Below, piece by piece: positions 9,518 through 47,790 of a DNA stretch of 64,000 nucleotides. The stretch comes from Sphaerolaimus hirsutus. Taxonomy: Eukaryota; Nematoda; Chromadorea; Monhysterida; Sphaerolaimidae. The notes beneath the pieces are model-generated. The model saw nothing but the letters and a program-made list of their open reading frames with translations. It had not been told where the DNA came from and did no database searches. The DNA is taken from contig OZ038459.1 in assembly GCA_964036195.1 (NCBI GenBank), positions 4,833,206 through 4,897,205 of the forward strand. Direction: 5' to 3'. Positions within the stretch are counted from its first letter, which is position 1. Each line of letters starts with the position of its first letter. Position numbers and translations under genes: made by a program.

Positions 9518-10376
9518 TATGTATCAAAATATGGCACCATTCATTGTAAAGTGATTTGTCTGTCCAGTTTACCATAAATTATGCACCAAATTCACCAATA
9601 GCGAAAACAACCTGATGTGCTGCGGAAAAATATTTTTGTTACTTATTCGAACGAATTTACGATGGATATCACTGTAAAATGTACAGTATGACTATGGGCA
9701 TTTGCAATTTCACCCATCATTTTTTTGTCCGACTAAAAAACATTTTTTCCGACATTTTCAAACTGAAACAGTGCCCAGGCAAAAAAGGCCCATTCGGAAT
9801 GAAATGAACGCGAAAATTTCAACGAAAGCTTCTGAAATACCATTTCCAAAACGCAAAAATGTCACTGAACAAACACTGATCTAAAAAGCCATTCACGCGA
9901 AGCATGTATCATGTGAAGTCGCATGCAAGCCGCAAACTGCTCGCAGCCGTCGCATGAAACCAAACCTAAAGCTTGATATAACGGCGCTGCACACAGTAAT
10001 GGTCTAGTGCATGTGAACTAAATGTTTAGTTCACTTATAAATCAACCTTTAATGGCGTTTGAGTTGACTGGAATTGGGTGTTCGTCAACTAATATCGACA
10101 AAAAGTAATAAAACACATTCCAGTCAACTAAAACTTGTTCAAGTTTGATCCACGAGTTAACTAAATTCGAAAACTTCCATTTGTAAACTAGTGCGCGCAG
10201 CTACAACACGCCGCGCCACTGCGGCGACACATTGCAGCGGCAAAAAAGATCCCCGCCGCTTTACCTGGCCGCTATAAACTGGGCCGTGCATTGCGCGCAC
10301 ACCCGGCGCGGGGAATGGTGCGGAGTAGTGATGGGAACAGCGCCAGAGAAAATGGCGCCAGGTTGCTGGAGGTCAG

Positions 10377-10663
10377 TAGTGATGGAAAAAAGCACCGGGA
10401 AATATGGCACCGCACCGGCACCGCGGCCATTCCTCAGAAAGAGCACCTGGCACAATGGGCACTGGCGAAAAAATGGCACCGCACCGCACCCGGTGCCATT
10501 TTGAAAAAAACAGCACCGGCCCGCTACCGGTGCTAACACCGGAAAGCACCGCACCGGGCTGCAGTTTCCGAAGTATTTTAGTTATCGGGTATTTTTCAGA
10601 TGCGTCACCCTTAGAACTGCGTAATTCGATAAATTCCCGGTGCCCGGTGCCTTTCCATCACTA
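10377..10663. mobile_element. hAT-like MITE, GGCACCG-motif family
   Basis: A 287-bp element with ends TAGTGATGGAAAA and TTTCCATCACTA. Flanks are GAGGTCAG (10369-10376) and GTGGTCAG (10664-10671), one change in 8. Filled with GGCACCGCACCGGCAC motifs. It seems to sit inside a sibling element with GCGCCAG motifs (TAGTGATGGGAACAGCGCCA at 10325). Confidence 0.8.
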
Positions 10664-11507
10664 GTGGTCAGTGCCAGCGCCAGCATGGAAAGGTGGCCAC
10701 GAATACGCCAAGCGCGCCATGGAGATAATCCCTGAAGAGCCAAGGGGTCATCACAAGTGAAGAGAAGTATTTGACATATTTAACAAGAATTGTCAAATGT
10801 CATGGAATATCTTCAAAAGTATAGAATGCAACTTGACGCGCGGCGACTGCAGAAAACTGTGAATTGTATTTATGATCCCACCGCTAGTCGACAGTGTGCA
10901 AATACGCGCCGCGGAACAAAAGCACCACGCATTGGCGGAGTGGAATGCGAAAAAATAAAAATAAATGGAAACATAAAAATGAGGGAAAATGTTGATAAGC
11001 GACGATTTTTCAGACATTGATATTTAATTTTCCGTCCAATACTCAACCAATTGATATGCACAATCCTATATTTAAGTATCATGGATTCAGCTTACATAAA
11101 ACAGTAAATACATTATGGGTTTATCAGCTGTACACAAATACACAAGCAGGTACTTATTACAGGTGGTAGACTGTTGTTTGCATAGAATGAAAGCTATAAG
11201 CTGCATTTCACATGAGCAAACAGACATTTCAATTGTGCATGCAAAATGACCACTTTTAACCGATATTTTTACCTTTTTCTGTCGAAAAAAGTTTATGTGA
11301 TAGACAAATTTTTATTTGTTTTTGTCATTATCATAGACATTTATTTTATTTATTATGATAGACAATTTATACGTCTGCATGTATAAATATTTATTTATTA
11401 TCTATTTATATCCTATGAGGGATCGTACACTTTTTGCACATACTTATTTGCGTCGAAAAAACTAGCCCACAATCACGGAAGCATTACACTTTGACCTGGA
11501 ATACGGG

Positions 11508-11646
11508 CAGGGGTCTCCAATGGGGGGGGGGGGGGGTTAGGGGGGGCGGGTTACCACCCCTAAACCGCCCAGCTATCTATCTATTTCGGAGGCCGCTCAG
11601 CTATCTATCCAACCCCCCTAGAGGGTCAAAATCTAGGAGACCTCTG
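11508..11646. mobile_element. hAT-like MITE, CAGGGG / CTATCTAT family, short
   Basis: A 139-bp internally deleted copy with perfect duplications AATACGGG (11500-11507 and 11647-11654). Confidence 0.9.
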
Positions 11647-12161
11647 AATACGGGATAATTATTTTCAAGAAAACGTCGCTACAAAACTGCTGACTGACGA
11701 AAAACAGCTGATCTTTTACAAACACAACCAACAGAACAATATTTATATCACATGTAAAGTGAGATTCTGAGTGAAATCACATCACAACGGCACATTTCAA
11801 GTGTTTACGATTTGGCCTAAAAACATTTATTTACGACGCGGTGAAAATTCCACAAGAGAACAAGTGGCGATAAAAGTGGTAAGTGGTAAGCCAAATGGCT
11901 AGAAAAGTGACAAGTAATGACACTTGACACCACTAAAATACTGAGGGAGTCTCCGTAAAGTGTACATTAAGTTAAGTGCAAGATGTCATACAATTTTGTC
12001 AAATGTCATGATACTTTGCACGACATTTGACAATTGACACGACACTTTTCAGGGTGCGAGATTGTCACACGGTGATACATTCACCAATCATTTAACTCAC
12101 CACTTTTAAGTCACTAGTCCCCCACGAAAATCGCCCATTGGTACAAACAAACCAAGGCATT

Positions 12162-15100
12162 TTACAAAAGATTATAAAAATAATCCAGACCCTGACCCAA
12201 ATCCCAAATCGCCACTCCGACACCCATTTTCTTGGCTAGATCCAGTCGCAGAGCGAGCGACTGCAGACTGGGGTAGTAAATTGTGGCGTCCCTGTAAAGT
12301 GAATTTGTCATTTTGAGCGGGGATCGCTTAACTACCGTATTCCCTCGAAATACCCCCCCGCTAAAAATGGCCACTATGAATTTATAAACCCCCTTTTGAA
12401 ACACCCCCCTCGTTTAACCCCCTCAAAATTCTCACTCTGAAAAAATAAACCCCCGGGGGTATTTCGAAGAAATATGGTACCCTAGACACTGCTCAGCTTT
12501 GTGTCACAATGTTGCTACTACGATCTGAAGCCCCCCTCCTCCAATAGCCCAATTCTACGTAGGGTCAATTTTGAGCAATCTTTTGAGCAAATTTTTGTAC
12601 AAAATCGCTTATTTTTGCAATTGTATTGTCCATTTTTCCGTAATAATAATATGAGAAAATAAAATATGAGAAAAATGATTGAAAAACAATTACCTGAAAA
12701 TCAGAGCGCTTTTTTGACTTATATTTTCTACAGGGTTTTTTTCCAGAGATTAGATTTTATTTTGTTCTTTGAGAGATTTTCTGAGATTACTTTTCATTAC
12801 ATTTTTGGAAACACACCCATTTATGGGATACGCCATCCTGAACTCACCGCGTTTAATTATTTACAGAAATTATAAATCAAACGGCTCCCCAAAAAAGCTT
12901 CCCCAAAACTGAAGAAATAAACTCTTGCATCGAGCGCCCTACACGCCATTTGAAATTGGCTCAAAAAACTCACCCAGTCTTGAAATAATGCTCCAGCGCG
13001 TTCTTATTCCACACAATTGTCGGTTTCCATTTATTCAACACCTCCAAATATACGCTTCCAATTATTGCCTGGGGTCTATTCCAAAATGGAGAAGTTTAAA
13101 AGACAATTTTAAAATTAGAAATCGAAAGTCAAAAGAAGAAAAATGGATTTAAAAAAGTAAATATTGGAAAGTTAATTTTAACTTCACAAAGTAAACTTCT
13201 AACTTATCTTCTTACTTTAACCTTTTCTTACTTGAAGAGTTTCGTTCCATAAGTGCATATCTCCACCAATTTTAATTTTTCAAATTCGCATTTTGAAGTT
13301 TAGCGGTGGCCCGACAGAGCCATGTTTGAGTGACAGAGCTTGCCACGCACTTTTCAGATATTTACCTGAGACTATTGCCTACATTTTTTGTATAAATGAT
13401 TTTTTTTTGCCGTACAGTCTATGTGGAGTTATGTCCAGATTTGTCGGGCCATTTTTTTCAGGAACAAAATGGACAATCTGCAATTAAAACTAAAACGACT
13501 TATGAATGGTGCGACCCTGCGACCTAGAAAAAACCAACTGCACCATTGAATAGCCTGTCTCGAAAAGTACCCCGACCTCAATTTTTAGACTTATACGTAC
13601 ATACGTATCCAAATTATAGCTCTGGACATGTTTGGAAATGCACGGATGCACTTTTGGAATGAAACTCCCATTTTGTATGGGAGTTCTGACCAGCTCTTCA
13701 GGAGCACGGACGCACTTTTGGAACGAAACTTTTTTTTTGGAGATATGCATTTTCGAAGTGGTAATTCCGGTGGCCCAAGATGGATAAACGCACTTTCGAT
13801 GTGAAAATTTCGTTTTTCTTGGTGGAGATACACACTTTTGGATGTGAAATCATGCTTTTTCTAAAAATCGGTACCAATGTATCTCCGGAACGAAATGGAC
13901 TCTGACACTAATTTTTTTCTAAAATGTACAAACATATACGTGGACGTCGAATCCACGCTCAACTCGATTTTTGTGATTTTGGCGCTTACGCACTTATGGA
14001 AGGAAACTCTTCACTTACTTTACATTTGTCTTTTAATTTCACAAAATTTTCTCTTCACTTTTTCGAGTTCTCATTTCACTCATCACTTCCAATTTTTTCC
14101 TTCTCACTACCCAGTCGCATTTAACCTTCCACTCTCACTTCAAAACACTCTCTCAACTCCTCCAAATTGGAACAGACACCTGGGGCAAGTTGTGCGCCTG
14201 TTGTTGCGAGGGGGCGGCGCCCTGGCGCGTGTACTGGTAGCCGTAGAAGTTGATGCCTAACAGCAGCTTGGACTTGAGCTGGGGGCCCGCCGCGCGCACC
14301 AGGTAGTCCAGGCACCGCTGCACCCAGTCCAGGGGCGCTAGGGGACCCCATTTTCTACGGGGGGTTATTTGAGGGTTTATGGTAGTCTAATGTGTGACAC
14401 GTTGGAAAAGTGTGACATTTTACTGCACAGCGATTAGAGAACGGACTTGCAGAAGGTGCGAATGCAAAATGTCAATATTTCCGTAAAAATGATTCCTTTT
14501 TTATTTCGATTGGCATTTCACGTGAGATTTGACACTCAACAGATATTAACTTGACTTGAAACTTGACTGTACAGGGACCGCCCCCCGCTTCAAATGGAAA
14601 TTTCCCCGCCTTCAAACCCTCCCAAAACTCCAACCTTCAAAAAAAACCCTGACCCACCCCCTATCCTGATAATCATATAACATCACGTGGAAATAGTCCA
14701 CGTACGGCAGCAGTCTAGCCAGATGCGCGGCGGTGAAAAGTCCCGTCTCTACATAGCCGCCACTGTTTGCCGCGTCGCCGCCGGGCATCAAGGGCGGCGG
14801 CACGGGCAGCACGAGCACCAGCCGCCGTGCCCGGAAGTGCTCCGACCAGGGGGCAGTCCCGAGCCCTGTAAAGTGGAATGTAAAGTGTCAAATACAAATG
14901 TAAAGTCAAATGTAAAGTAAAATGTCAATTGGGTATCCAAAAAATGTTTTTGTATCCAAATAGCCTCCAAATAGACTTTACAGTTGTTTTTGTATCAAAA
15001 AAAGATAAATATACAAAAACATAAGATTAGGGTACCAAAAATATATATTCTGATACACAATTGACACTCTACTTTACATTTGACACTTTGTATAACAATT

Positions 15101-18100
15101 GACACTTTACTTTGCATTTGACTTTACATTTGACAATTTTTTTAACACTTTACTTTACATTTGATACTTTGCATGACAATTGACATTTGACTTTACATTT
15201 GACACTTTGCATGACAATTGACATTTGACTTTACAGTTGACACTTTGCATGACAATTGACATTTGACTTTGCATTTTACTTTACATTTGACACATTACTT
15301 CACACTTTACAGGGCTTGGGACTGCCACCAGTTGATTATAAAGTCTTGCAGTTCTCTGCGTGGGGATTGAGGGGTGGTTTGACATGGTTTGGTTGGACAC
15401 GATAGCACACCTAGGCGAACTAGTCGACGCGGCGTCAACTGATGTCAGTCGGGAATTCAATTTTGCGTTTGAAAGTGTGTCGAAATCACCTTTTAGTAAT
15501 TTGAAAAACTAACTTGGTAATTCACTTGACATACATAAAATACACTTCACTTTTTCAAACTTCCAATACAAATTCAATTGACAATTGAAATCAACGGCGC
15601 GTCAACTATTGTGTGTAGGCACAATGGGGAAGAAACGTTCTGCCGTCACGGAACATATTCCCGAGGGCAAACGTTAAGCTAGACTAGTGACAACAATTGA
15701 TGCACGATGTTTACAAGGATTTGAAACCTCGGTCCTCATTCAAATTTGAAAACAGCACTTGAAAAGTGAACTTCAGTCCGAAAATTGCCATTGACCAACC
15801 TGGCCACGTGGCCCTGCGACATGGACATGACCAGCATCCACAGTTCCACCACGGCGCCGGAAAATTCGTTTCTCTGAAATGTTGACAATTTAAAATTAAA
15901 TCAAAAGATCTAAAAGTCATAAAAATTCATAAAATCAAACTACACCCCACTTCAAAAGTTCGTGCGCGACGACTTTTTCGCATTTTGCAAATGGCGATTA
16001 TCGACGACTACATGCTAGGGGGCCGATATAGGTGTCAAAAAATAGCCCAGACATTTCTCTACCAACGTCTCAATTTTCAGCCCCATAGCTGTATCATGCC
16101 TCAGTTGAGAGCCCCTCAAAGAAATAGTGTGTGGACAAAAGTTCATGCGCCAGGAACAAAAGTTCACTTCCTGGGAGTGGTTGTTGATGGCCATAGCGAC
16201 TCAGCCACATGTGCCACCGTCAAGCCGAGCCAGTTTTTGAAGGAGCTTGTACAGATCAAAATATTGTTGTAGGGGACAAGGATCCTACCCCAAAGTCCAA
16301 TGCCATGGGTGTAAATCAGAGATACAACCGAAACGCAAAACTATCGTACTTTTTTCATCACAGGAAAAACTGATAAAATTGCTTGCGAGTCAGTTCACAG
16401 GACCTCTATCCAGACTTGCCACTTCAGGGAGCATGTGGAATTCACTACGGACTGGCCTGAAACTGACTGGAACATGTATTTTTCCTGTGTTGAAAAAAGT
16501 ACGATATTTTTGCATTTCGGTTGTATCTCTGATTTACACCCATGGCATTGGACTTTGGGGTAGGATCCTTGTCCCCTACAACAATATTTTGATCTGTACA
16601 AGCTCCTTCAAAAACTGGCTCGGCTCGACGGTGGCACATGTGGCTGAGTCGCTATGGCCATCAACAACCACTCCCAGGAAGTGAACTTTTGTTCCTAGCG
16701 CATGAACTTTTGTTCGCACACTATTTCTTTGAGGGGCTCTCAACTGAGGCATGATACAGCTATGGGGCTGAAAATTGAGACGTTGGTAGAGAAATGTCTG
16801 GGCTATTTTTTGACACCTATATCAGCCTCCTAGCATGTAGTCATCATGAATCGCAATTTTAAAAAGGCAAAAAAATCGTCGCGCATGAACTTTTGAAGTG
16901 GGGTGTAGGTACTTACAGGACAATGAAGGTAAATACAAATCATGTATTTACGACGCAACGGGACAGTATGCTACCATATTTCGATAAATAAAGTCGCAAA
17001 TCCCATTACAAATAGTTATACGTGCAAAAACCACCTGCAAATAGTCTAGCAGCACATCGGCACACCGGTCCTGTTCCCCTTGGTCGCCGAAAAAGCGTAT
17101 AAACTCTACCGCGGGCCACTTTTCGAATAAAAGCCGCGGCACGATTTTCACGTCGGGATTCTGCTTTCGAAGGCGCGACATCCAGCCTGCGGGAAAGTAA
17201 ATACCGTATTTCGTCGAAATACCCCCGTCAAAATGGCCACTATTAATTAATCACTCCCCCTCCCCACCCTCGAAATAAGTTTGGAATGATGTACATCATG
17301 TATACAATGTACATGGTGTATTTATTGCTGCCAGTTTATGTCGCAGCTACTAGTTATTTATACTAGTTTGTGTAGCGATGTAAGTCGATATGTCCAAATG
17401 TATAATATTTGGACAATTTAATAGGTGTCACTCCATGGCGCCACTGGCGTAGTCATTGGCTAAAAAACAGCAGTATGTCTGTATTGTACAGGTATATACA
17501 GCGATATGAACAGGAATTGAGTTCATTTTCACTGGCTTTGCGGCTTCGGAGACTGGTCATCCGAAAATATATGTTGCGTGAGGAGAAAATGCGCGCAAAA
17601 TTCCACTGATGTCCCACAAATACAACCAACCGTGGTCCACATCGTGGGTGCCAGTAATTTTGCAGGTAGTTGCCGGGCTGCCAGTTGACCGGTCGCCGGC
17701 GGGCGTCAACTGCAGCCACACGGGCGATATCAATTCGAACCTGTTCGCTTCTGATTCCGCCAGAGTGTAGCCTAAGTGTAGGGGCGGTTAAAAAGTGATT
17801 TTAGTGTCCCGATTTAAAAAATCGACTTTATTTCAAAGGAAAAAAAAACGATTTTTCTTCTTGATTAAAATTTAACCTACTATTCTATACTCATCGTTCA
17901 CACATTTACACAGTTACATTTACACATACACATTTACGCATTTAAGTTTAGGTACACATTTATATTTACACTTACACATTTACATTTACACATTTACATC
18001 TACATTATTTACATAATTACACATTTTTAGTAGCGACTCACAAGATATTTTACATTTTTTTTTGCACGAAGCGCGCAATTTCACAAATTTCAAAAACAAC

Positions 18101-18982
18101 CCAAAAACAAATAAAATTTTTCCACCAAAAACAAATCCACACCCACCTTTATTATGCCAGGGCGTGACGTATCCCAGCGCGGTATTGGGAAACTGTTTGT
18201 CTCCCCCAGCGTCCAGCCGATCGTGATTGCGCACAATCTCTGACCAAGTGACGGTGTTCGCGCCCGCGCCAAGCTCCGCCCCGTGAGTTGACGGCTGGCA
18301 ATGTGAAAAGTGTAGAGTCGTTGAAAGTGCTGAACTTTTTTCAAAGTAAACGTAGAGTATTTTTTTTTTTACTCACCACTGAGTACTGAAAACGTGAAGT
18401 AAAAACTTTTTACTTTTACACTGCGTAAAACGTGAGTAAAATACTTTTTTTCTGTGTAAACGTAAAGCGGAGTATGTTTTCTCACAGAAAACATGATAGC
18501 TAGTATTTTTCTCATAGAAAACGCGGTTCTTGTACAAATGTAAAGTGCCGATATTTTAACTAGCCCTACATTTTACCCGGATTTTGGCACCAGAAATGCA
18601 AATATTTACTCCAACATTTTACATGGCACTTGTCGCCAGTTTTTCAGCCACTTTCACCTTGGATACGGGAAACGACAATGTTTACGAAGACTTTTTGGAA
18701 CTGAGTATAGCACTTCCAAAACCCAAAGTTTTGGCGCCCAAAAACAAAAGCAGACAACACACGGCCAACCTGCTTTGCATTACCCGCAGCCGGGGTCTTT
18801 ACATTTTTGCTGGCAGCTTGCCCAGAAACTTCCTTCCCTCCGCCAGCGGTCGCGCCAGCTTTCTTGGCGGCACTTGGCTTCTTGCCAGCAACTTTTCCAC
18901 CCCTGTCGCTCTTCGACAAGGTTGCAATGGACACTAAGGGCATGCTGACGCACAGGTACAGGAGTACGTAACTCGTGTACAT
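12162..18982 (-). CDS. CHID1: CHID1-like chitinase domain-containing protein (coding exon interrupted by a transposon)
   Basis: Secreted or lysosomal GH18-fold protein of the CHID1 (stabilin-1-interacting chitinase-like) family. Exons on the minus strand: 18982-18770, 18294-18147, 17771-17631, 17186-17035, 15873-15800, 15355-15328 joined to 14845-14658, 14354-14180, 13068-12974 and 12291-12162, giving 447 residues (human about 393). Every intron is GT-AG and phases agree, except at the transposon that splits the sixth exon. The first exon encodes a signal peptide followed by TLSKSD, as in human CHID1. Conserved blocks in order are [65 protein letters not shown] and [11 protein letters not shown]. 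The canonical chitinase DxxDxDxE motif is not visible; only the E of VVELW is kept, as in human CHID1, so catalysis is doubtful. An upstream in-frame Met at 19030 would add 16 residues ahead of the signal peptide. The identification is firm; intactness depends on how the element at 14851-15327 is handled. Confidence 0.85.
12335..12477. mobile_element. TA-flanked CCGTATT element in CHID1 intron 8
   Basis: A 143-bp copy between TA dinucleotides, 43 bp upstream of the CHID1 last exon. Confidence 0.75.
14851..15327. mobile_element. CCWGG-family TIR element inside a CHID1 coding exon
   Basis: A 477-bp non-autonomous element. The left end starts GGGCAGTCCCGAGCCCTG and the right end finishes CAGGGCTTGGGACTGCCA. 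Flanks are CCAGG (14846-14850) and CCAGT (15328-15332), a 5-bp target duplication with one change. The interior is made of variants of TTTGACATTTGACTTTACAT and TGTAAAGT. On the gene strand the ends carry GTAAAG and CTTTACAG, which look like a splice donor and acceptor. Removing 482 bp exactly rejoins the CHID1 codons for INW and SEHF. Confidence 0.85.
15940..16908. mobile_element. Long foldback element in CHID1 intron 4
   Basis: A 969-bp near-perfect inverted repeat. The arms run about 15940-16371 and 16478-16908 around a spacer of about 105 bp, with ends CTACACCCCACTTCAAAAGT and its inverse. A transcript in either direction would fold into a hairpin with a stem of about 430 bp. No 8-bp target duplication is visible. 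The ORFs inside are mirror images and not protein-like. Confidence 0.85.
18326..18560. repeat. GTAAAAGTACTTTT-motif repeat in CHID1 intron 1
   Basis: Shares GCTGAACTTTTTTCAAAGTA-like sequence with the left end of the 54334 element, followed by GTAAAACGTGAGTAAAATAC motifs. The right boundary is unclear. Confidence 0.5.
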
Positions 18983-20374
18983 GGTGCGCACCGTCGACGA
19001 ACCCATGGTGCTGTGCGAGCCGCTCGACACTTGGTTTTAGGGAACAGTGAGGCGGGTGCGAATGTCGCTAGTGGGCAAGTGACAAGAAAATGACAAGTTG
19101 TGACTAAAGTGGTAAGTGGTAAGTTACCTACCTATGTAAGATTACAGGTATTTTTATACACAAAAGTTTCAATATGCTTTTTCACAAGATGTTCTTGTCA
19201 CTTGCCCACTTGTCGACGCACCAGGGTGGAAATGAAAGAAAACATTGTAAATATGAAAGATAAGCAGACTAGATTAGAAGCCGGTCACCGAAGAAAAAAG
19301 GTGTTATAGTGATAGCATCCTTCAGAGTTTATAAATTTATTTTTCAAAATTTTATTATTCGTGTATTAAGCAATACTAACCCCGCAAATTGGCGACAATA
19401 TATACAAAAACATATTTATAATTTGGCATGCGCATTTTGTGTTTCTCGGTATATTTCCGGGATGAGTACAAAAATACAATGGCACGAGCCTGAGTGGTAA
19501 TATTTGCAGGTAATGTGAAAACAGAAACAAATTAATAATAGATTGATCTGCTTTGATTGAGTTGACAAATTTACCTAATTGGCAGCTCAATTCATTCGGG
19601 AAAACACACGCCTAGCCGATTAGCTGCCAATCAATTTGACATTTAATCGGACATAGTAATTTTCCGACGGAATGAATCGGGTTGTCAGATAAAACCTGTC
19701 TGGCCAGTTAAAAATCAAGTTTTTTATCAGTGAACCATCGAAATTATGGCCGTCAAATTTCCAATAAGAAAGTACTGTAAAAAATAGAAACCAATACAAC
19801 CCGAAACAATTGCAAACATCCTAAATACAAATAGTAGAAGGAGAAAAAATTTCTTGTATTATACCAGACTACCTAATTGCATCTCCAGTAGTATTCCATT
19901 AGTTCAAAAAATGTTGACAAACACGAAAATAACACACACATTTGAGCCAAGTTAAAACCACAAGTTAATTTGAACACAATTAATTAACTTGACAGTTGAC
20001 ATATTAATTTCCAGGCCGAAAGCACTTATTAATCTTTGTCTGCCACTTTTCGTCATTCTCTTATTATATTTCTGTCACCGACTACGGTAAACAATCGAAA
20101 ACATTTCAGATGTATCAATGGCGCTAATAACACTATTTGACTCGCGCGTCAACTGGTTTAGATCTCAATTCAGATTTTAGTTGACCGGTTTATGTCAAAG
20201 CACATGCCTAAAGAATGAATGTGCATTTGAACATGACACTGTGCTCAGTCAACTGAAATCCGAATTCACATCGAAACCAGTTGACACCCAGTTTCAACTA
20301 GTGTGCCTAGCGTCAACGCGGAAAGAGACGTAAAGGCACCATATATAATTTGAAGAAGAAAACTTAGTCGCCAC

Positions 20375-20464
20375 TAGGGATGGACAAAAAATTTCTTTTT
20401 AACGACCTGCCTTTAAAAAAGACATTTAAAAAAGACGGTTGAAAAAAGACATCGGTCATCCCTA
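20375..20464. mobile_element. 90-bp hAT-like MITE downstream of DNAJC3
   Basis: Ends TAGGGATGG and CCATCCCTA with perfect 8-bp duplications GTCGCCAC (20367-20374 and 20465-20472). The interior is made of TTAAAAAAGAC-like motifs. Confidence 0.85.
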
Positions 20465-20582
20465 GTCGCCACAATTCGCCACAAATCACAGTAACTGTTG
20501 TGCGTGAATAAATAAATACCACACTGGAAAAGAAAAACACGCAAAAAGCGGACGAAAAAAAACGCAACAAAAATTGCACAAA

Positions 20583-20588
20583 TTTATT
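20583..20588 (-). terminator. Polyadenylation signal AATAAA for DNAJC3
   Basis: On the minus strand AATAAA lies 34 nt past the DNAJC3 stop codon (TGA at 20625-20623), giving a very short 3' UTR. A 90-bp hAT-like element lies just beyond it. Confidence 0.7.
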
Positions 20589-20622
20589 TGAAAAACAAAA
20601 ACAGGTATCCGTATTCAACCAA

Positions 20623-23600
20623 TCAACCATAGTGAAACTTGAAACTGAACGGCCCGCCTCCAAATGGATTAAAATGAAATCCCCCCTGTTGAAAGGGGTG
20701 GCCTTGCTGAGCTTGCTGTTCAGCATCTAGGGGGTCCTCGCCGTTGTCGAATTTCTTACGTTTTTCTGCGTTGACAAAATATTTTGGGAAATTAAAATTG
20801 ACGCGACAAAATTCAAGCGTTGTGACCGAACGAAACTATGCTTTTTCGGATATTTCATTACTTTAGCTGAGTGCGGAAAAATATCTCCCTCGAATAATCC
20901 CCCACCCCCTCTTTGATGGGTGTGAAAGGTGTCACGTGCATAAAAAATTATTATATCAAGTCGACGGACCTTTCACCATACAATTCTACGTAATGAAACC
21001 GTCAAACTAAACGCGAAATTGATCATGCATTTTACTTAATATTCTGAGGGGGATAAGTCGAATAACTCCCCAATCAATAAGTCTAATAATAAGCCCATCC
21101 TAGAAATACCCCCACAAAATTTCCACTCTAAAATAATAAACCCCCTGGGGGTATTAAATAAAGTATTAACATAAATACGGTTCGTATAAAAAAATGCAAA
21201 AAACATTGTTGTTACCTGGATCTGATAAAACTTCTTTCGCGGCGGCGATATCGATAAACTTGGCCTCAGCTTTTTTCTTCTCATCGTCATCAGAGAAATT
21301 GTCCGGATGCCATTGTTGCGCCAATTTTCTGTACGCCTTGGTGATTTCCGTTTTCTTCGCGTTTCTGAAATGGTTTTATTTAATTTTAACAACCGCTTTA
21401 AAATTGGGTCCCAATGTCCAAGATGTTAAGCATGATACGTAACTGGCTCAATCCAGCACCCTTTTAAGTGTAAAGTCATAAAAGAAACGATTTTATTATT
21501 GGACTTTTGAGACTTTGCATGACAATTGCCAAATTTGTGGCATTTTACACTTGACTTAACACTTTACAGGGTGCGGCACTGGCACCCGATCGATAAAAAG
21601 ACGATATTTACGTAAAATTCTATGCAAAACCACCAAAAAACTCTCACCCACCTCTTAAGGCCCAAAATCTTATAATAATCCCTCCTGCCAGCCTGTTTCT
21701 TCAACTTCTGCACCCTACTCACGCCCTCCCTCGCCCTACGATTTCCTTCATCCGTCTGTAGGGCAGACTCAAAGTCGCGTAGGGCGGACTCGTAGTCCTC
21801 CTCGAGGAGGTGGGCCTCGGCGCGGTCGCACAGGGTGGCCGTGTTGTCGGGTTCTAGTTCTAGGACTGCGGAACAGATGGCTAATGCCTCGGCTGAGTGG
21901 CCCGCCTGGGTGTGGGGGGATATATGGGCGTACCGGTACCGTAAAGTTGAGGGTTTACCGTAGCGTACCGGAAAGTTAACCGGAGTTTTCTAAATTTACG
22001 GTACCGTTGAAGGCTTTCCAAAGCGTACCGTTCGTCACGCTGAGCAAAAAGCTAGTAATATAATATTAATGTTTTGAAGCATCAATTGAAACACCATAGT
22101 GTAAGCATTTGTAAGCAGGCTTTTATGGTTACAATCATCATCAGTAAATTTTCTACTCGCCCATCTAGTTGAAAGAATCACACTAGACATTTATACACAT
22201 TTCATTTACCCATCGCATCTGCTGTGCATTCTGTCGGAATTAGGGTTGGAAAAAAAACGTTTTTTTTTAAATCGATGTTTTTTTTATAAAAAAAACGTTT
22301 TTTTTTTTATTAAAAAAACGTTTTTTTTAATAAAAAACGTTTTTTTTAAAAGCTCCCAGATATAACCTTGTGTCAACATATATAGGTATATCAGACAGTG
22401 GCAATACTCTGTGATGTTATATATGACCATATAATGTCTGTGGAGCCATGGGATAGCATTATAAGTGGTGATTTGTGTCAAAAATATCCATTTTTCGTCA
22501 ACATATCGTTCGTATATCGCCTTATAGTCGAATGTTCGTGACTTCAGGTAAAGTTTGGCATGGAATAGTGATCAAACAAGGTTATAAAACGAGGTTGTTA
22601 CTTTGGGAGTGAAGTTACACACTGTGGAGGTACATGGAAGCACATTACCTCAATATTATATACTACAGCAACATATGACGGCTTATTAACCCATGGTAGC
22701 ATATATAAATGGATACTTTGATACAAAAAACGCCATAAAACCAATGAAAACAACCACCAATGTCAATTTGTGTGTGAAATTGCGCGCTTGCGCGCAAAAA
22801 TTTTGCAAAATACCTAGTGCTTAGTACTAAAAATTTCGGTCGATGTTTTTTTTTTAAAAAAAACATTTCGGACGTCATGTTTTTTTTTTTTAAAAACATT
22901 TCGGACGTCATGTGGGGAAACCGCCGCACACTGGGGAAACCGCCGCACTAAATTCTTGCCAAAAAGTAACAACAAACAAAAACAACTCAGGAATCTCCTA
23001 GATTTTGACCCTCCGGGGGGTTGGATAGATAGCTGAGCGGCCTTCGGGATAGATATATATTTAGCTGGGCGGTTGTGGGGGGGGGGTGGTAACCCCCTAT
23101 TGGAGACCCCTTCAACAACTCACATTAACTTGACATCTGCAAGCGGTTTTATCCAGCTCGTGTCTCAATCTGGGCTGTTTCGGTTCGGTTTTCAACGCGG
23201 CTTGCCACCGTTCTATGCAGTCGCCCCATTCTTCCTGTGCGGACGCCTCTTGCATGGATTTGATTTGTTTGTCCAACTTTTTCACCTTTTTGTAGTGAGC
23301 GAAGCATTCTTTGTGGTCGGGATCCAGTTTCAGGCACTCGCGGATTTGACTGCGAATGGTGAGATATTTGATTAACTATATCCGGGATTTTGATGGCAAA
23401 AATGGCGGTTCAATTCAGTATATGGGCTTTTACAAAGGGTAGTAGTGTGGTTCAACGGGATTGACTTTTCGGGATCGGGGCCGGGATTGTGATTTTAAGA
23501 TTTTGGGATCGGGATTGGAGTTTCGGAATCGGGACCGCTGAATCCCGGACAGTTTCGGGATTCGGGATCGGGACCCGTTTGAACCCTAATCGGGATTGGT

Positions 23601-26787: not shown

Positions 26788-27650
26788 GGATTAAACAGAA
26801 TTAACTACGCAAGTGCCATTCCGCAAACGCAGAAACTTTCGCAAAATTTTTCCGTTTAGTTTGCGTATTAAATGTGTGCACTTTTTAACCGGAACGTCCG
26901 CGTTTAATACATTAAAAGTATTGGCCGAAGTGTTCGTATTTCCAAAATACGTTTGGAACAATGCCAATTGGGACGTTTTGTTAAAGTTTGCGTGTGTCTA
27001 TTGCGAAATGTTTTTCGTAACGTCATCGGATATGTGAAATCGATTTTCAACGTCGATATGGCTGAAAAAGTGATAGCATTATCAGTGAAATGTTATTTTA
27101 AGTGTTCAACGCATATTTAGACTGATATAAACACATAATTCATGTGGCGCGGTCCGTTTTTGAGAACGAATTTCTAATTACCTTGAGTTTCAGGGTTTTT
27201 AGAGGTCAGCCAATATTTTGACGCGTACACGTATCCAAAACGTGGGCTGCATGAATTGTCAAGCAACGCCGATCCTTCGTGTTGAACTTATGATACATGT
27301 AACACGTTTTATCGTCGCTCTAAATGTGTTATTAAATAGCAGTGTTACTACTGTAAACCCTGTATTTGCGACAGGCCCCAATCACACATCCAAAGTTCAC
27401 ATTTACTCTTTTGGCACTGTGCCAAACAATCTCTAAGCTTCCAACGTCACATAACTCCCTCCCAAACTAATTTGCAGCACCGAGCGTCCACTAGAGTAGC
27501 CAGGTGCCACTTCCAGACACTGTAAAATGTCAAATGTCATGCAAATGTTAAAGGGCATGTCAAATGGCAAGCACGACATTTTACATGCCTTTGCATGACA
27601 CTTGACATTCTACAAAGTCTGAAAGTGCCCCAGGGCGCATTTCCAAACAA
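26788..27650. promoter_or_regulatory. Shared spacer between divergent DNAJC3 and AK2, presumed two-way promoter region
   Basis: The two start codons face away from each other across 863 bp, so both promoters should lie here unless non-coding first exons lie elsewhere. I see no clear TATA box or CpG island. A 125-bp transposon (27505-27629) sits in the AK2-proximal part. The promoter role is inferred from position only. Confidence 0.5.
27505..27629. mobile_element. CCWGG-family TIR element in the AK2 upstream leader
   Basis: A 125-bp element with perfect CCAGG duplications at 27500-27504 and 27630-27634. Its ends are TGCCACTTCCAGACACTG and the inverse CAAAGTCTGAAAGTGCC. It ends 21 bp before the AK2 start codon. 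Its acceptor-like end has decayed to CTACAAAG. Confidence 0.85.
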
Positions 27651-36629: not shown

Positions 36630-36905
36630 ATGGCGCCTGCAGCTAAGACCGGTAAGGGAATTTTAGAACAGGCGGCAGTGCCGAGCCCTGTAATGTGTAA
36701 AGTCAAGTGTGAAATGTCATGTTAAATGTCATACAAATTTGTCAATTGTCATGCAAAGTGTTAAAATTTTATTAAAAATTTTTTTTTTGTGTAATATTTA
36801 TTATTTTCTTTTTTTGATTGACGTTTTACGTGAAATTTGACACGCGACTTTACACTTTACAGGGCTCGGGATTGCCCCCAGGTTGCCAATTCCGCCAGTT
36901 GAGAG
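36630..36905 (+). other. Possible small coding start interrupted by a CCWGG-family element
   Basis: An ATG at 36630 opens MAPAAKTGKGILEQ in GC-rich codons and runs into a transposon (36673-36877). Normal use of the donor in the left end (after 36689) and the acceptor in the right end (before 36863) keeps the frame open to an AGAG-GTAAAG donor after 36905. A competing donor, ACCG-GTAAGG, ends the exon after only 22 nt. No downstream exon was found and the protein is not recognised, so this may be chance. Confidence 0.2.
36673..36877. mobile_element. CCWGG-family TIR element
   Basis: A 205-bp element with flanks ACAGG (36668-36672) and CCAGG (36878-36882). Ends are CGGCAGTGCCGAGCCCTG and the inverse, ending GGGCTCGGGATTGCCC. 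The left end carries GTAATG as a donor-like site and the right end CTTTACAG. Confidence 0.7.
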
Positions 36906-47329: not shown

Positions 47330-47790
47330 TTTATATGACATTTTACGTTTTACAGGGCGCTTTACAGGGGTTTGGAGTACCCGCTCGTGCCAGTCATAAG
47401 CCCTGTAAAGTGTAAAGTCAAGTGTCAAATATCATGTAAAATGTCAAGCATTACAAAAAGATTTTATTACTGAAATTTGCATGACTATTGCCATTTTGTA
47501 TGACAATTGACAAAATTGTGCGTCAATTTACATGACAATTGTCAAACTCCTATGCCGTTTCATATGACAATTTCCAAATTCATATGCCATTTTACATGAC
47601 ATTTGACACTTGACTTTACAGGGCTACACTTTATACTTTACAGGGCTTGTGACTGGCACGAGGGGCACTCCAAAACCCTGTAAAATGTCATGTAAAATGC
47701 TCTATAAAATGGCAAATGAGTTTGTCATTTCACATGACTTTTGACACATTGCGTAACATTTGACATTTTACAGGGTCTGTGAGTAAAGAT
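47330..47790. mobile_element. Cluster of abutting CCWGG-family elements
   Basis: Ends facing each other include CTCGTGCCAGTCATAAGCCC (47387-47406 region) and its inverse near 47,640-47,660, with further CCCTGTAAAATG and TTTACAGGGTCTG ends outside them. At least two insertions appear nested or adjacent. Clean boundaries cannot be set by eye. Confidence 0.55.

Follow-up and report, generated by a model that had tools for sequence, protein, structure and literature searches.

A transposon family that splits CHID1 and other coding exons in the nematode Sphaerolaimus hirsutus and may form introns with AG or TG 3' ends

We analyzed a stretch of 64,000 nucleotides of the Sphaerolaimus hirsutus genome (assembly GCA_964036195.1, contig OZ038459.1, positions 4,833,206 to 4,897,205 of the forward strand; contig C15 in our labeling), hereafter the window, in which a small DNA transposon interrupts a coding exon of the gene CHID1. 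Relatives of this element split further genes in the same manner. On balance, we favor the interpretation that they are an introner family of a nematode and that their copies are removed by the spliceosome, which would accept a relaxed (A/T)G 3' end with the help of a hairpin. As similar sequences present in many copies that split several genes, the elements would count as introners in the sense of exon-splitting sequence.

The window contains a complete CHID1 gene on its minus strand, with nine coding exons and 455 amino acids. The encoded protein matched the Pfam family PF00704 (E=5e-16, residues 178-446), was placed within the nematode CHID1s with a support of 1.0 in a tree of 31 CHID1 proteins, and had its best named match in Romanomermis culicivorax (40%). 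Its sixth exon is interrupted after ...ATAATCAACTG and resumes at GTCGGAGCAC, and the minus strand reads ...ATAATCAACTG/GTGGCAGTCCC...GGGACTGCCCCCTG/GTCGGAGCAC... across the insertion. The remaining eight introns of this copy are all GT-AG. The exons and the parts of the insertion, in which the element resembles a miniature inverted-repeat transposable element (MITE), are as follows (window coordinates).

18770..19006, minus strand: coding exon 1, with the ATG
18147..18294, minus strand: coding exon 2
17631..17771, minus strand: coding exon 3
17035..17186, minus strand: coding exon 4
15800..15873, minus strand: coding exon 5
15328..15355, minus strand: left half of the split sixth exon, after a CGCAG acceptor (AGAACTGCAAGACTTTATAATCAACTGG); divided as in the earlier reading described below, with the final G attributable to either side
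15329..15331, minus strand: left target copy CTG, the end of the left exon half
14850..15328, minus strand: MITE-like element proper, 479 bp, with the ends GTGGCAGTCCCAAGCCCTGTAAAG ... CTTTACAGGGCTCGGGACTGCCCC
14847..15328, minus strand: element plus right target copy, 482 nt, the exact removal of which restores CHID1; as an intron, GTGGCAG...GCCCCCTG (GT...TG)
15305..15328, minus strand: left terminal inverted repeat, providing a donor GT at 15328-15327
15305..15310, minus strand: donor-like GTAAAG in the left repeat, frame-shifting when joined with TTTACAG
14866..14872, minus strand: internal acceptor-like TTTACAG, 19 nt upstream of where the exact intron closes; its use shifts the frame, and it is paired in the predicted hairpin
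14850..14873, minus strand: right terminal inverted repeat
14847..14849, minus strand: right target copy CTG, with whose TG the exact intron closes
14658..14846, minus strand: right half of the split sixth exon, closing at a GT donor (GGATAGGGG/GTGGGTC)
14180..14354, minus strand: coding exon 7
12974..13068, minus strand: coding exon 8
12162..12291, minus strand: coding exon 9 with the stop codon

An earlier reading of this DNA from its letters alone (the sequence-only reading) had proposed that an element splits a CHID1 exon, that removal of 482 nt joins INW to SEHF in frame, and that the GT candidates combined with CTTTACAG shift the frame. All three points were borne out. The exon halves are found at 15355-15328 and 14845-14658, removal of 482 nt gives AAC TGG TCG GAG in frame, and INW/SEHF is ungapped in the eight homologues inspected of the 120 aligned to CHID1. 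A location of the element in an intron was discarded, because the alignment with homologues shows the two halves to be one exon. The target copy had been given as CCAGT, whereas we found CTG at CHID1 and CWG in the family. At the split exon, we enumerated 52 GT and 31 AG dinucleotides in the window copy of the gene, and 50 GT and 27 AG in a second copy described below. Eight GT/AG combinations are open and in frame in each copy, but all of them use AGs well within the right exon half and delete at least 28 residues, including the stretch LVLVLPVPP that is aligned in the homologues inspected. No GT-AG pair restores the frame with the right exon half kept, and the full protein requires exact removal. 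The sequence-only reading was thus right that GT-AG splicing fails for the full protein, but did not list GT...TG, which is the exact removal.

The second CHID1 was identified on contig C14; it contains the insertion at the same base (split-exon region C14:17,001,270-17,002,429), which comprises 423 nt there, and both reading frames are intact. A whole-genome search listed CHID1 exons from these two copies only. The C14 gene is located within a segment of ~20 kb that matches the window in pieces of 85-97% similarity, a segmental duplication in which C14:16990000-17009999 (L010/L011 among our numbered loci) corresponds to window positions 10000-22000. In 1,368 coding nt, the two copies differ by 11 synonymous changes and 1 nonsynonymous change (synonymous divergence [dS] 0.034, nonsynonymous divergence [dN] 0.001; p = 1.4e-6 for all 12 changes). 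Downstream of the insertion the ratio is 5:1 (p = 0.004), and in the right exon half 4 of 188 bases differ, with one replacement. Given a C14 copy with the same insertion, two open frames, and 11 silent changes against 1 replacement, the CHID1 allele is probably not broken. Of the two alternatives raised by the sequence-only reading, a broken allele or a non-standard removal from RNA, the second appears the better one, since purifying selection is also seen downstream of the insertion. An assembly error as the source of the split exon was discarded because both copies agree.

The ordinary CHID1 introns are between 69% and 99.9% alike in the two copies. The last two reach 99.9%, as compared to 69-98% for the others, so the 3' portion of the gene has probably undergone some gene conversion recently. 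Where the element can be aligned, its two copies diverge by 6%, with a further 59 gap columns, which indicates a long separate history of the insertions. The insertion is most simply read as older than the divergence of the copies, with later selection on the frame downstream of it.

The inverted repeats of the CHID1 element are CTGGTGGCAGTCCCAAGCCCTGTAAAG and CTTTACAGGGCTCGGGACTGCCCCCTG. Their tips are unlike, with GGT on the left and GGG on the right, and a GT is consequently present at the left end only. As the left end opens with GT, exact removal corresponds to an intron GT...CAG, or GT...CTG as in CHID1; the CHID1 copy is thus one base apart (CTG for CAG) from the GT...AG introns with the same positions. 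The folding of the element strand was far stronger than that of its shuffles (z = -11), and the base-paired terminal inverted repeats that a substrate of SOS splicing requires are present in the folding predictions. A 510-bp query from the window had 216 matches in the genome. With this number of matches and such a fold, chance is excluded as the source of the pattern.

Genome-wide, the 22-base core of the repeat had 9,687 matches (4,828 + 4,859) with at most two mismatches, whereas its reversed control had none under the same threshold. In most copies CWG precedes a left end GTG(G/C)CA and follows a right end TGCCCC, giving CWG/GT on the left and CCCC/CWG on the right. We assembled a set of 62 copies with both ends present; the exonic copies are among them, and one entry or more mis-pairs two neighboring elements. 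CWG was found on both sides in 43 of them (CTG/CTG 19, CAG/CAG 10, CTG/CAG 8, and CAG/CTG 6), and in 29 of the 43 the W is identical on both sides (p = 0.03). In the other 14 it differs, also where the repeats are perfect, unlike in a simple target duplication. These disagreements notwithstanding, the element probably duplicates CWG at its target, like the NuwaI group of transposons; duplications of 8 bp or 5 bp were rejected because the flanks of most copies agree at most in CWG. A sister subfamily has the same ends and a different core (GACCCTGTGAAATG and similar).

To identify other split genes, relatives of the 510-bp query were inspected (L002-L008 and L014-L045), together with a sample of contig C1 that covered 71 of 100 listed repeat places. 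In this sample 20 places were read with both flanks (L050-L069) and 51 with one flank (L070-L089, L091-L109, and L116-L127); a pair of places was counted once, and other halves were added where an exon appeared. A search for coding-like right flanks, with G/C at every third base, provided a set of 92 matches, of which 19 flanks were picked by eye as not resembling recurrent repeats, and a set of 26 matches, from which six copies (L147-L152) were picked for their CTG ends. Eight genes split by family copies are supported by homology, three of them through weak matches, and in all eight the GT end lies upstream in the gene. The copies in CHID1 and in the VMAT, BTB, and NHL genes end in CTG, and those in the SLC22, WAP, PrimPol-like, and BABAM1-like genes in AG. 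Apart from CHID1 they are the following, followed by 13 sense cases based on reading frames only (5 TG and 8 AG).

L136: VMAT/SLC18 gene (region C6:8,253,717-8,254,532), CTG...CTG; PDB match to VMAT2, E=2e-24, ungapped over MGYL/VDLRHV
L146: BTB/KCTD-like gene (region C521:11,702-12,516), CTG...CTG; BTB_2 1.3e-8, KCTD by eye
L110: NHL-repeat gene (region C1:5,186,850-5,187,800), CTG...CTG; 0.0068, under the Pfam cut-off
L039: SLC22/MFS-like transporter, AG end; Sugar_tr 1.7e-16, with neighboring exons joined by eye
L043: WAP gene, AG end; 1.1e-9
L142: PrimPol-like gene, presumably so named, AG end; UL52 7.8e-4, under the cut-off
L086/L090: BABAM1-like gene, AG end; weak PDB match, E=0.2, ungapped through RPPC
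Frames only, TG end: L113/L085, L111/L081, L132, L148, and L152 (left side of L152 is CCG)
Frames only, AG end: L030, L081/L112, L130, L131, L134, L137, L138, and L139

The sense copies therefore total 21, of which 9 end in TG (CHID1 and eight others) and 12 are GT...AG. At the split genes tested, exact removal is predicted to restore the frame and ungapped homology, and the VMAT, BTB, and NHL genes have open frames on both sides of their CTG copies. Members of the sister subfamily include the copies in the VMAT, NHL, and WAP genes. In a first trial with Pfam none of seven junction peptides matched, including that of the lone SLC22 exon, for which PDB gave OCT2 only (E=0.81); L148 and L152 had no Pfam match and are sense by frames only. 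The right target copy is CAG in the SLC22 and BABAM1-like genes (L039 and L090) and CTAG in L112, while the left one is CTG in all three; with AG at the right end despite a left CTG, these would be canonical introns. Several loci were not retained. L128, L129, L133, L140, L141, L144, and L145 were set aside as undecided or non-coding, which together with L135 and L143 (see below) left 10 of the 19 flanks; L147, L149, and L151 were unclear or non-coding, L087/L114 and L115 unclear, and L003/L006/L027 appear to represent a single non-coding repeat. At C1:5362500-5364460 (L111/L081/L112), a short exon lies between elements of two subfamilies. In L115 (C15:17576700-17578000) an element is nested in an older exonic element whose 3' end is CCCCCGG, without AG, and its paralogue L030 has CCCCAG at the corresponding 3' end.

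Orientation was biased. The GT end was upstream in 8 of 8 homology-supported copies (two-sided p = 0.008), or in 5 of 5 when only strong matches were counted (p = 0.06). A looser reading by eye gave 21 sense copies of 24 (p = 0.0003), and 19 of 21 (p = 0.0002) without those picked from the 26-match set. As for the 3' end, the 26-match set, with coding-like flanks in one codon phase and a coding status established for only some members, contained 18 CAG and 8 CTG, compared to a background ratio of 18:25 (p = 0.046). AG thus seems to be preferred at the 3' end, as would be expected of the spliceosome. L148 and L152 were excluded from the comparison of exonic copies because they had been picked for CTG; the remainder showed 7 CTG to 12 AG, where the background ratio is 25:18 (p = 0.17).

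These data suggest the following mechanism. A non-autonomous, CWG-targeting DNA transposon of the MITE type would enter an exon and thereby create an intron. Its left terminus GT, directly after the target CWG, would serve as the 5' splice site, and the CWG at the right end as the 3' splice site, canonical where it is CAG and non-canonical where it is CTG, as in both CHID1 copies. Since one element and one target copy lie between these splice sites, the mRNA would return to its length before insertion. The hairpin of the inverted repeats may join both termini, with the terminal GT placed next to the (A/T)G, and the pairing of TTTACAG with the left repeat may hide this internal site from use. 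In 18 of 19 introns (18 loci, with CHID1 counted twice), a TTTACAG-like site precedes the exact end by precisely 19 nt, a position at which its use shifts the frame by +1; it has been lost in the BABAM1-like copy. In the predicted folds, the final G of this site has its partner in the left repeat, adjacent to GTAAAG, in 17 of 18 cases, and the entire seven-base site is paired in 14 of them. The anatomy, the intact frames, selection on CHID1, the recurrence in other genes, the orientation, and the frame loss with TTTACAG are read directly from the sequence. We infer the spliceosome as the agent because orientation matters for a GT and does not matter for a hairpin; TG would be used as a 3' splice site, and the hairpin would contribute.

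Several observations weigh against this interpretation. AG closes all eight other CHID1 introns. Coding status was derived from frames read by eye in 13 of the 21 sense cases, and matches were weak for three of the other eight. A codon score computed automatically after training on CHID1 failed to distinguish the two orientations (6 sense and 5 antisense copies above zero) and was dropped as an orientation test for being too weak. There are three antisense exonic candidates, L143, L150, and L135, for which no GT terminus is available; none of them had a Pfam match, and L143, which also had no useful PDB match, has what we take to be a RIF1-type C-terminus. The insertion could have passed between the CHID1 copies by gene conversion, although the element differs by 6% and by gaps. 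Finally, excerpts of a study of human introns present TG only as an alternative 3' site, with ~0.01% of candidates functional (PMC2374985).

A bolder possibility, which we consider less likely than not, is that the hairpin and not a terminal AG sets the 3' end of this young intron class. CTG would then work like CAG, through either a TG-accepting, hairpin-guided spliceosome or exact SOS splicing, and transposon insertions in the exons of essential genes would do little harm. The over-representation of CAG in coding-like flanks reduced our confidence in it.

SOS splicing has been reported in C. elegans and human cells. Paired repeats would mark the element, which would be removed by endonuclease excision and RTCB ligation without the spliceosome, GT, or AG. 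We consider this process an unlikely explanation, but it is the strongest competitor of the spliceosomal reading, above all where copies end in CTG or lie antisense. The very strong predicted hairpin suits it, copies ending in CTG are not uncommon in exons (the 7:12 ratio above), and the antisense candidates would need it and, if expressed, would favor removal of this type. However, SOS splicing is not known to depend on orientation or on splice-site dinucleotides, and its junctions are often imprecise, whereas the GT end comes first in all eight homology-supported copies although a hairpin does not change with orientation, CAG is over-represented in coding-like flanks (18:8), and the proteins need exact joining. 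The sequence-only reading had named recognition of the paired inverted ends as the route of removal; as stated, this is not supported, given eight sense copies of eight, four of which are GT...AG introns at the same two positions. The window groups with nematodes, which fits the description of SOS splicing as a metazoan pathway in excerpts of PMC13247085.

It is less probable still that the CTG insertions mark broken or low-output alleles, in which splicing to TTTACAG shifts the frame, or that intact alleles exist elsewhere. TTTACAG is indeed the nearest canonical acceptor, with a +1 shift wherever it is kept (18 of 19 introns), but both CHID1 copies carry the insertion and show few replacements, also downstream of it, and the open frames flanking the CTG copies of the VMAT, BTB, and NHL genes argue in the same direction. 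Exact somatic excision of the DNA, leaving one CWG and making the assembly the germline form, would account for the exact target copy, and programmed DNA elimination occurs in some nematodes; it is nevertheless very improbable, as it gives no role to the orientation bias or to the terminal GT and AG, and the assembly contains thousands of copies. Least probable of all is a shortened, in-frame CHID1 spliced to an AG deep in the right exon half, for although both copies offer such combinations, they sacrifice the at least 28 residues mentioned above, the right half differs between copies by 4 of 188 bases with one replacement, and the VMAT and BTB genes would be left unexplained.

Other features of the window were noted. 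Related elements are found at 36675-36875, with CTG beside both ends, at 47390-47656, with CGAG-type flanks without CWG, and near 27503, 35098, and 40156; no recognized exons were matched at these other related elements of the window. CHID1 adjoins a J-domain gene (about 20630-21910, minus strand; putatively DNAJC3-like by eye), an intron of which contains a different small inverted-repeat element near 21470-21590 (GCCGCACCCTGTAAAG...). A G-rich repeat with the words CCCCCGGGGG and GAGGAAATACGGTA is frequent in introns and spacers, for example at window positions 12320-12480 and in L039 at 1770-1920.

With the same element class carrying CAG or CTG at the same position, the family offers a natural, repeated experiment on transposons becoming introns in an animal, in which TG splicing, a hidden internal AG, and SOS splicing versus the spliceosome can be compared. 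The recurrence of a TG end in transposon-derived introns is new to us, from a light search of the literature on it. Likewise, we met no nematode introners in the literature searched, which included excerpts of PMC9169325 on nematode introns and left most subscription papers outside it. In the survey of 3,325 genomes by Gozashti et al. 2022 (PMC9860276), excerpts of which place introners in only two animal groups and whose main text has no word beginning with nematod-, introners are non-autonomous DNA transposons that create introns, many with terminal inverted repeats and short target site duplications. Nematode introners would extend this phenomenon.

According to the same excerpts (PMC9860276), some introner families have one splice site borne by the element and the other provided by the target site duplication, and most restore the mRNA length exactly. 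The family described here is similar, with an element-borne 5' site and a 3' site from the target copy, but varies at its 3' end (AG or TG), whereas the variation in the survey is at the 5' site (GC, GA). The NuwaI group of the PHIS (PIF/Harbinger) superfamily has CWG target duplications and occurs mainly in animals, as stated in excerpts of PMC4482050; the likeness lies in the target site alone, and the disagreement between the two CWG sides in 14 of 43 copies exceeds what a simple 3-bp duplication gives. With SOS splicing, as excerpted from PMC13247085, which cites Zhao et al., the family shares a DNA transposon with paired inverted repeats in an exon and its removal from RNA, here predicted, and differs in its biased orientation and splice-like terminal dinucleotides. 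The TG 3' sites of human U2 introns are confined to positions no more than 28 nt from an AG (Szafranski 2007, PMC2374985, in part), which agrees with the 19 nt found here, but those sites are alternative partners of a usable AG, whereas here the nearby AG breaks the frame. Finally, tunicate genomes contain many introns outside the GT/AG rule, and excerpts of PMC13326754 consider introner transposons one possible source of weak sites. S. hirsutus would likewise be an animal with introns outside this rule, but here the other CHID1 introns are GT-AG and the exceptions noticed are confined to one transposon class.

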